DNA from: Candidatus Brocadia sp.
GTDB taxonomy: Bacteria > Planctomycetota > Brocadiia > Brocadiales > Brocadiaceae
Assembly: GCA_011525665.1 (NCBI GenBank)
Contig: WYAU01000014.1
Location: 1-64,000 of the forward strand
Reading direction: 5' to 3'
Length of the DNA: 64,000 nucleotides
In this document: piece by piece, positions 4,596-11,003 of the stretch
Position numbering within the stretch: the stretch's first letter is position 1
Layout of the letters: every line of letters starts with the position of its first letter
Notes under the pieces: model-generated
Told to the model about the DNA's origin: nothing
What the model saw: only the letters and a program-made list of their open reading frames with translations
The model's database searches: none
Position numbers and translations under genes: made by a program

Positions 4596-4647
4596 TTAAA
4601 CAAAACTTTATGTTCATCCTGCCACTTTTTGAAAAAGGAGGAAAATC

Positions 4648-5295
4648 ATGACAAAGCATATCTTCGCCTGTTTTATTTTATTATTGACGCCTCTGACAGT
4701 AACGCTTGCTACAGAGACAAAAGACACACCGCTGCTTATTGTATGGGAAAAAACCCTCGATGATGCAGTCGCAAAGGCAAAAACATCGGGAAAGCCTATT
4801 TTGTTGGACTTCTTTGCACCTACCTGAACGGGCTGCAAAACATTGGGTGCCGTGACGTACCCTGATGCCAGAGTAGGAGGCTACATCAGCAAAAATTTCA
4901 TTCCCCTGCAAATTAACATTCAAAGCAGTTCCGGTCTTGCCGGAAAATACCGGACATTTTGGACACCCACCCTCATCATTTTGGATTCTCTGGGAACCGA
5001 ATATTATCGCTTCTCCGGGTTTTTGCCTCCTGATGAATTTATTCCGCAACTGCAGTTCGGATTAGGTTTCATGTCGCTGGAAAAGCAGGATTATAAGAGT
5101 GCCAGCGCCCGGCTAAAGTTGGTAGTGGATAAATATCCCGGGAGCGACATAGCCCCGGAGGCGCAATATTGGTTTGGTGTTTCGGAATATAAGGCCACAC
5201 ATTCCGTGGACGCATTACTAAACGCATGGAAGAAAATTAAGACGGATTATCCCGGGAGTATTTGGGCAAAGAAGGTCTCTTTTGTAAAGGATTGA
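4648..5295 (+). CDS. Exported thioredoxin-like/TPR protein, probable selenoprotein (UGA at 4825)
   Basis: From ATG 4648, which has a strong AAGGAGG site, the frame reads a signal peptide (MTKHIFACFILLLTPLTV), then a thioredoxin start KPILLDFFAPT, then TGA at 4825-4827, then TGCK and a normal thioredoxin continuation with the cis-Pro region FWTPTLIIL. It ends with a TPR-like C-terminus up to 5295. The UGA sits precisely where the first Cys of the CxxC motif belongs, giving U-T-G-C. A stem-loop with a GU-containing apical loop follows 13 bases after the UGA. Reading UGA as selenocysteine gives 215 residues. The alternative is a nonsense mutation (TGT or TGC to TGA), but coding character is unbroken on both sides. 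A shorter start at TTG 4843 would lack both signal and active site. Likely a periplasmic thiol/selenol oxidoreductase. Confidence 0.75.
4841..4867 (+). promoter_or_regulatory. Candidate bacterial SECIS element
   Basis: Downstream of the in-frame UGA the mRNA can fold as CAU, bulged U, GGGUGC, loop CGUGAC, GUACCC, UG, AUG. The helix begins 13 bases after the UGA and the 6-base apical loop contains GU. Bacterial SECIS elements bound by SelB lie in this position and typically have a GU in the apical loop and a bulged U in the stem, as in E. coli fdhF. The structure was folded by eye and its free energy was not computed. Confidence 0.55.
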
Positions 5296-5335: not shown

Positions 5336-5938
5336 TTACGTCTCTTTCCAATTGATCCATTGTGGGACTTCGTAAAGGGGTTTACTGCATATAAGTTCCT
5401 CCAGGAGCGATTCCGGATTGTCAGAGGTTATGAGAAGGCGGTGATGTTTTGTCTGTATAAAACGTTCCCGTAATACATGGTTTATAAATGCCAATAATAG
5501 ATCAAAATATCCTTCCACATTGAGCAACCCGATGGGCTTTGCATGCAGTCCCAGTTGCGCCCACGTAAGAATCTCGAAGAATTCATCAAAGGTGCCAAAT
5601 CCTCCGGGCATTGCAATAAAGGCATCGGCTAATTCCGCCATCATTGCCTTTCGTTCGTGCATGCTTGATACCATTCGAAGTTCTGTCAGACCCGGATGGG
5701 CAAACTCTTTAGAGGCAAGGGCGTGTGGGATTACGCCGATAACATCGCCCTTTTCTTGTAAAGCTGCGTCTGCAATAACTCCCATCAGGCCGACGCTTCC
5801 TCCGCCGTAGACAAGCCCCATTTCACGGAATACGATAGCCCTGCCGAGTTGTTGGGCGGCTTCTGTATACACCGAACGTGCACCGGCATGGGAACCGCAA
5901 AAGACACAGATGCGTTTTATAGAGTTTTTATCTGCCAT
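5336..5938 (-). CDS. LOG family protein (TIGR00730-type nucleotide phosphoribohydrolase)
   Basis: 200 residues with a Rossmann-like start (ICVFCGSHAGA), the glycine-rich GLVYGGGSVGLMG, and the family signature PGGFGTFDEFFEILTW carrying the catalytic-type Glu. LOG proteins cleave the N-glycosidic bond of nucleoside 5'-monophosphates; plant members activate cytokinins, and bacterial members act on AMP or related nucleotides. It is the last gene of the minus-strand ribH...LOG run and follows the 56-aa ORF by 7 bases. It ends facing the thioredoxin-like gene with about 40 bases between the stops and no clear terminator. Confidence 0.9.
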   Translation of the reverse strand: MADKNSIKRICVFCGSHAGARSVYTEAAQQLGRAIVFREMGLVYGGGSVGLMGVIADAALQEKGDVIGVIPHALASKEFAHPGLTELRMVSSMHERKAMMAELADAFIAMPGGFGTFDEFFEILTWAQLGLHAKPIGLLNVEGYFDLLLAFINHVLRERFIQTKHHRLLITSDNPESLLEELICSKPLYEVPQWINWKET

Positions 5939-10292: not shown

Positions 10293-11003
10293 TCAAGGCT
10301 TTTCTCCGGGGTTTCTTCCGTCATCTCTGTCGCTGGCGAAGCAAAATGTAGTGGAGAATCCGCTCCGTCCATCATAATTCCACTCCTGGTTACCCTCCTG
10401 GAATTGGTGGGTTGTTGCCTTTCCCATATCCAATGTCATGTCAAATTCCCTTGCCCATAGTGAAAAATTCTTGTTTACAATTTGAGTGGGCTTGCCGGGA
10501 TCTCCTGCTCCGCGAAGCAACTCAATGACTAATGTCAGATTGTCGGCTACAATCGCCTTTTTATGCCACCGGGAAGACTCCACATGCATGGGCACATATC
10601 TTACCGTAATCCTCTCCGGAGGAACTTTTGCAAAGCCAAATACATGGTTTTGAAAGATGTCCAGCAATGCGTTTTTCTGGACGGCTGCGGCCTTTTCGTC
10701 AAGGTAGAAAACAATCCAGTTTTTGTCCGGCCTTGCGGTTAAATCCGTTATTCCTATTACGGTTTGACCGTCCACAGCATGTTGCCCGTAATGTCCCTTT
10801 TTAATATGAAAAACACCGGTAATTTTACACGTTTTGTTATGAGTCGGTTCGCTTCCGAACATGCACGGGCAACCGGGATTGCAGGTGCATCCTTCAAAAT
10901 ATTCACCTTCGATCGACCACGTGGGGTCTGCAAAGACAACACCGAAGATACCACATGACAGAACAACGGCTATGAATCCCGCCAATACATATCTGCTCTT
11001 CAT
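10293..11003 (-). CDS. Exported DUF1326 family protein
   Basis: 236 residues. A signal peptide (YVLAGFIAVVLSCGIFGVVFA) is followed by the DUF1326 signature GEYFEGCTCNPGCPCMFG with four closely spaced Cys, and a further Cys in NKTCK. The C-terminal tail after about residue 215 is low-complexity and charged. DUF1326 proteins have no established function; the Cys cluster suggests metal or redox chemistry in the periplasm. It has its own promoter (11096-11125). Its stop lies about 100 bases from ribH, so it is probably monocistronic. Confidence 0.85.
   Translation of the reverse strand: MKSRYVLAGFIAVVLSCGIFGVVFADPTWSIEGEYFEGCTCNPGCPCMFGSEPTHNKTCKITGVFHIKKGHYGQHAVDGQTVIGITDLTARPDKNWIVFYLDEKAAAVQKNALLDIFQNHVFGFAKVPPERITVRYVPMHVESSRWHKKAIVADNLTLVIELLRGAGDPGKPTQIVNKNFSLWAREFDMTLDMGKATTHQFQEGNQEWNYDGRSGFSTTFCFASDRDDGRNPGEKP

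Follow-up and report, generated by a model that had tools for sequence, protein, structure and literature searches.

The closest described system to the gene reported here is a UxxC selenoprotein of the PF13098 family, annotated as a "thiol:disulfide interchange protein" (WP_011366075.1) and known from Geobacter and Syntrophus (PMC1794560; PMC13188914, Table 1). It is also the nearest entry in the 2026 inventory of 119 prokaryotic selenoprotein families, which names no thioredoxin-TPR family (PMC13188914). The protein described here likewise matches Thioredoxin_2 (PF13098) and has a UxxC motif with selenocysteine (Sec) in the first position; however, WP_011366075.1 was reported from Deltaproteobacteria, whereas the present family is found across the Planctomycetota, the two having been compared by description only. 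In the listed papers that link selenocysteine or selenoproteins to anammox, Brocadia, Planctomycetes, TPR or DsbD, most of them judged by title and abstract, no description of the family was found; selenoproteins of marine planctomycetes were reported in 2016 (PMC4807772).

The C-terminal (gamma) domain of DsbD is similar to our protein in sequence profile and in the position of the redox motif, but DsbD is a membrane protein with a CxxC motif, whereas the present protein has 215 residues, Sec and a TPR tail but not the transmembrane domain of DsbD; consisting of thioredoxin and TPR parts only, it has neither the membrane-embedded beta domain nor the periplasmic alpha domain of full-length DsbD, and it scored 44 bits on the DsbD model, for which the cut-off is 330. 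The thioredoxin-like selenoproteins of NCBIfam (VPGUxxT, NF041382/NF041383; Trx7/PDZ, NF041199; TsoB, NF045694) share with it a thioredoxin-like domain and the occurrence of Sec in members, but differ in motif or architecture, and its scores of 18-44 bits on these models compare with cut-offs of 275-805; no NCBIfam model, these included, was matched above cut-off. YbgF/CpoB and BamD have a similar C-terminal helical repeat, although the likeness is limited to the TPR repeats, there being no thioredoxin domain in those matches. The protein apparently belongs to an unnamed subfamily of thioredoxin-fold bacterial selenoproteins, which may be a family of its own or a longer branch of the one that includes WP_011366075.1.

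We consider it highly probable that the gene encodes a 215-residue exported selenoprotein of a Candidatus Brocadia-type anammox bacterium, in which Sec60 is incorporated by means of SelB and a hairpin, and which would act as a DsbD-gamma-like reductase or carrier with TPR docking. In silico, its being a selenoprotein is all but certain, which cannot be said of its function.

The gene, its product and its surroundings

In the window, by which we mean the whole 64,000-nucleotide stretch of contig WYAU01000014.1 that was analyzed, positions 4648-5295 form one reading frame, MTKHIFACFILLLTPLTVTLATETKD...FFAPT-U-TGCK...VKD, in which U60 is the only in-frame TGA ahead of the terminal stop, itself a TGA (5293-5295). 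A sequence-only reading of this DNA had described a strong ribosome site, a signal peptide, an internal TGA and a thioredoxin/TPR continuation in one frame, all of which are present (Table 1); on inspection of the sequence, 6 nt separate the Shine-Dalgarno from the ATG. That reading had placed the TGA at the first Cys position of the redox motif PT-U-TGC-K, and the two homologues with Cys at this position have TGC there. The peptide spanning the UGA in the Brocadia window is SGKPILLDFFAPT-U-TGCK. The same reading had also warned that automatic annotation would yield a 150-residue fragment, and standard ORF calling returned exactly that (4843..5295, TTG start).

Table 1. Features of the selenoprotein gene and its product, in positions of the window
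Feature	Positions	Strand	Basis
Shine-Dalgarno, AGGAGG	4636..4641	+	sequence
Selenoprotein gene, 215 residues with TGA read as Sec	4648..5295	+	translation, homologue conservation, dN/dS
Apparent Sec-type signal peptide, MTKHIFACFILLLTPLTVTLA	4648..4713	+	by eye; hydrophobic N-termini in aligned orthologues
Thioredoxin-fold domain, DsbD-gamma-like, residues 29-135	4732..5052	+	Pfam PF13899/PF13098, DsbD structures, model, conservation
UGA codon for Sec60, first residue of UxxC	4825..4827	+	codon read in homologues
Cys63, resolving Cys of UxxC, invariant in 41/41 representatives	4834..4836	+	alignment
Bacterial SECIS hairpin, GGGUGC-CGUGAC-GUACCC	4845..4862	+	folding, comparative analysis
TPR-like helical tail, residues 137-210	5056..5277	+	profile matches, model, structure comparison

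Judged by eye, the N-terminus resembles a signal peptide that would be cleaved off. Pfam assigned residues 33-133 above cut-off to Thioredoxin_7/Thioredoxin_2 (PF13899/PF13098), and a profile search of solved structures gave as nearest match a putative disulphide isomerase (2kuc, E 1e-14), with DsbD C-terminal domains (2fwe, 1uc7 and others) at E values from 6.6e-10 to 6e-8 and YbgF/CpoB matching the tail. The AlphaFold model (mean pLDDT 77) has thioredoxin elements followed by TPR-like helices, with low confidence in the active-site loop (residues 60-67). When the whole model was compared with known structures, TPR proteins dominated and the TPR part alone was confirmed, so that the assignment of the thioredoxin domain depends on the sequence profiles. 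The protein combines a thioredoxin domain, a redox pair spaced by two residues (U60/C63) and a proline at the cis-Pro position, P107, which we would expect to be in the cis state.

The next gene downstream (5336-5938, LOG family) runs in the opposite direction and so leaves this gene without an operon partner. A promoter scan of the + strand found no promoter-like site. Among Brocadia relatives the flanking genes are kept, on the opposite strand, with no functional partner in the neighborhood; in distant homologues the neighboring genes are inconsistent. Elsewhere in the window, the minus strand at 10293-11003 encodes a DUF1326 protein that appears to be exported and contains the Cys-rich motif CTCNPGCPC.

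Conservation of the UGA codon and the SECIS hairpin

We searched 392 planctomycete genomes for read-through homologues and scanned species genomes for encoded relatives, reading the codon at the aligned site directly. TGA occupies this site in 64 distinct homologues of the same architecture from the phylum sample, down to ~25% protein identity, in which the distance from the UGA to the next stop is mostly 155-169 residues, and was read in 15 further genes from the order to which the window belongs. The only sense replacement is TGC (Cys), in L042 and L114, so every other same-architecture homologue recovered has TGA in the same alignment column, a degree of conservation far beyond chance. Residues 60 (Sec or Cys), 63 (Cys) and P107 are invariant in 41 aligned representatives. 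Against ten orthologues, dN/dS was 0.09-0.43 in the part before the UGA and 0.08-0.22 in the part after it, which indicates purifying selection on either side of the codon. In the tree the two Cys forms group together, a topology that leaves both Cys and Sec as possible ancestral states.

Several related genes were noted in the course of this survey. Tandem duplicates, i.e., two adjacent TGA genes of the family with divergent motifs (UTGC/UAGC and UTSC/UASC), are present as well (L026, L033, L053, and L120). Related UGWC thioredoxin genes with a longer architecture, ~305 residues after the TGA, are found in planctomycete families f71 and f78 (L088, L089, L090, and L093). Two genes of Candidatus Aminicenantes (L058:295 and L059:2081) have TGA at an aligned UGSC site in a longer protein, of ~500 aa, that combines thioredoxin with a long TPR part, and it is possible that they represent a related selenoprotein in another phylum.

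The UGA is followed by a hairpin with a 6-bp stem (+20 to +25 paired with +32 to +37 from the UGA) and the loop CGUGAC, and folding produced the same hairpin from +20 to +37 in nearly every homologue. The apical loop of a bacterial SECIS is expected 16-37 nt from the UGA, and the position of the hairpin agrees with this spacing. For comparative analysis the 64 homologues were reduced to 40 representatives sharing <85% nucleotide identity over 90 nt from the UGA. All six pairs form in 37 of the 40; with synonymous codons resampled (1000 trials) a mean of 1.6 and a maximum of six were fully paired, and with the partner strand slid by 1-6 nt none were. Across the alignment 96.3% of cells are paired and three pairs have two-sided changes, with 14 two-sided cells against 2.5 in shuffles and a covariation score matched by none of 500 shuffles; one homologue (L086) has the stem exchanged for GGCCAA/UUGGCC. 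Synonymous divergence is also depressed in the hairpin codons (pS 0-0.32, vs. 0.35-0.79 downstream). The Cys genes L042 and L114 have neither the UGA nor the stem. At the gathering threshold Rfam matched only a tRNA in the window, and the call consequently rests on the comparative analysis, by which the hairpin is a bacterial SECIS.

Selenocysteine machinery in the source genome and its order

A genome without selB or selC would speak against a selenoprotein. The source genome (3.63 Mb, 99.9% complete) has both, as well as selA and selD: tRNA-Sec with anticodon UCA (67.8 bits), SelB (386 bits, contig C49), SelA (556 bits, adjoining selB on the same contig) and SelD (359 bits). The selD gene (L064; G000:C99:4872-5792) contains one in-frame TGA, for which reason SelD is probably a selenoprotein itself. 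The earlier proposal of a probable selenoprotein is supported by every in silico check that was run (TGA conservation, Cys homologues, sel genes). The SECIS hairpin, the spread through the phylum, a second copy lacking a signal peptide and the absence from curated selenoprotein families are new relative to that proposal.

In the window's order the TGA form occurs in 32 of 62 genomes and the Cys form in two. In 27 of the 32, SelB was found over cut-off or, for G168, well above the background set by EF-Tu; where the TGA form is absent (30 genomes), only six have SelB. We regard these counts as supporting and not independent evidence, as related genomes share ancestry. Four of the five TGA-form genomes with SelB below cut-off were covered by a tRNA-Sec search (G138, G390, G362, and G366, but not G395); a good tRNA-Sec is present in the first three and none was found in G366, which is 84% complete. 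No tested genome of family f3, home of both Cys forms, has SelB over cut-off. G374 and G416 lack SelB over cut-off, and no tRNA-Sec above the tRNA-Ser level was found in G374. The Cys orthologues L042 and L114, in genomes without SelB over cut-off and with no stem, are a natural control. Four genomes from two other genera of the window's family (G070, G182, G228, and G267) have no SelB over cut-off, no tRNA-Sec above the tRNA-Ser level and no gene of this family, and Sec decoding has probably been lost in them. These lineages make up a natural experiment, in which Brocadia and its relatives have the Sec form, a sister family has the Cys form and lacks SelB, and further genera have neither the gene nor SelB.

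Alternative readings and the proposed function

Were the TGA a nonsense mutation or a sequencing error in a decaying thioredoxin-TPR gene, damaged copies would count in its favor, and there are three: G206 (L074) and G322 (L038) have truncated copies from which the half with the UGA is missing, alongside an intact TGA paralogue in each genome, and the copy in G122 (L037) has an extra TAA after the UGA. However, these are isolated exceptions among close relatives with intact frames, so that the TGA is not accompanied by other disabling mutations in the way that the sequence-only reading had named as telling against a selenoprotein. The identical TGA column in dozens of independent genomes refutes decay or error, and with dN/dS well under 1 on both sides, a conserved SECIS and the complete Sec machinery we regard this explanation as exceedingly improbable. 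Scarcely more credible is that an altered code or a near-cognate suppressor tRNA causes UGA to be decoded as Trp, Cys or Gly. Other bacteria are known in which UGA stands for Trp or Gly, but this gene and many of its homologues terminate in TGA, from which it follows that readthrough is context-dependent; a tRNA-Sec with the UCA anticodon is present together with SelA, SelB, and SelD, the SECIS comes right after the internal TGA, and the sole sense replacement is Cys, in genomes without SelB over cut-off. On these grounds we reject an altered genetic code. Insertion of Sec at UGA 4825 is strongly supported by sequence conservation and the encoded machinery: SelB and Sec-tRNA-Sec would bind the hairpin after the UGA and insert Sec at residue 60.

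The selenoprotein could be a chaperedoxin-like holdase, a disulfide isomerase or a selenium carrier and not a reductase, a proposition that we find unlikely yet by no means negligible. The combination of thioredoxin and TPR recalls the CnoX/YbbN chaperedoxins, and a paralogue without a signal peptide lies just upstream of a gene for an HtrA-like protease, which hints at quality control; but this neighbor belongs to the paralogue and not to the exported gene, a UxxC motif with an invariant resolving Cys and a proline at the cis-Pro position is typical of reductases, and DsbD C-terminal domains are among the closest solved relatives. The product is most likely a UxxC oxidoreductase that resembles DsbD-gamma, is exported and bears a TPR tail. 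By analogy with the family, after export Sec60 of the thioredoxin domain would attack a disulfide or an oxidized thiol, and Cys63 would resolve the intermediate, making the protein a disulfide reductase or a reductive thiol-redox carrier in the envelope. The C-terminal TPR helices would most likely dock a partner, and recharging would plausibly be by a DsbD-type membrane electron donor; at other sites, this genome has genes for two proteins as long as DsbD that contain Cys thioredoxin domains (L019 and L020). We infer the redox direction and partners of this UxxC-TPR selenoprotein, as well as the enzymatic direction implicit in the earlier term "selenol oxidoreductase."

Since standard ORF calling presents this gene and its homologues only as fragments after the TGA, the genomes of anammox bacteria and other planctomycetes probably conceal a conserved redox protein that depends on selenium. 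It follows as a prediction that selenium serves many anammox bacteria in an exported thiol-redox step. More tentatively, the genes may constitute an unnamed Planctomycetota-wide family of UxxC thioredoxin-TPR selenoproteins with Sec in nearly all known members, having exported and apparently cytosolic anammox forms and serving a selenium-dependent system of envelope thiol redox or cytochrome maturation, which is possible but doubtful as a whole. The second family member in the source genome (C69; L018:1483-2049), which has no signal peptide, has the motif UIGC and the same kind of hairpin, and lies 130 bp upstream of the gene for the HtrA-like trypsin/PDZ protease, named by eye from its sequence.
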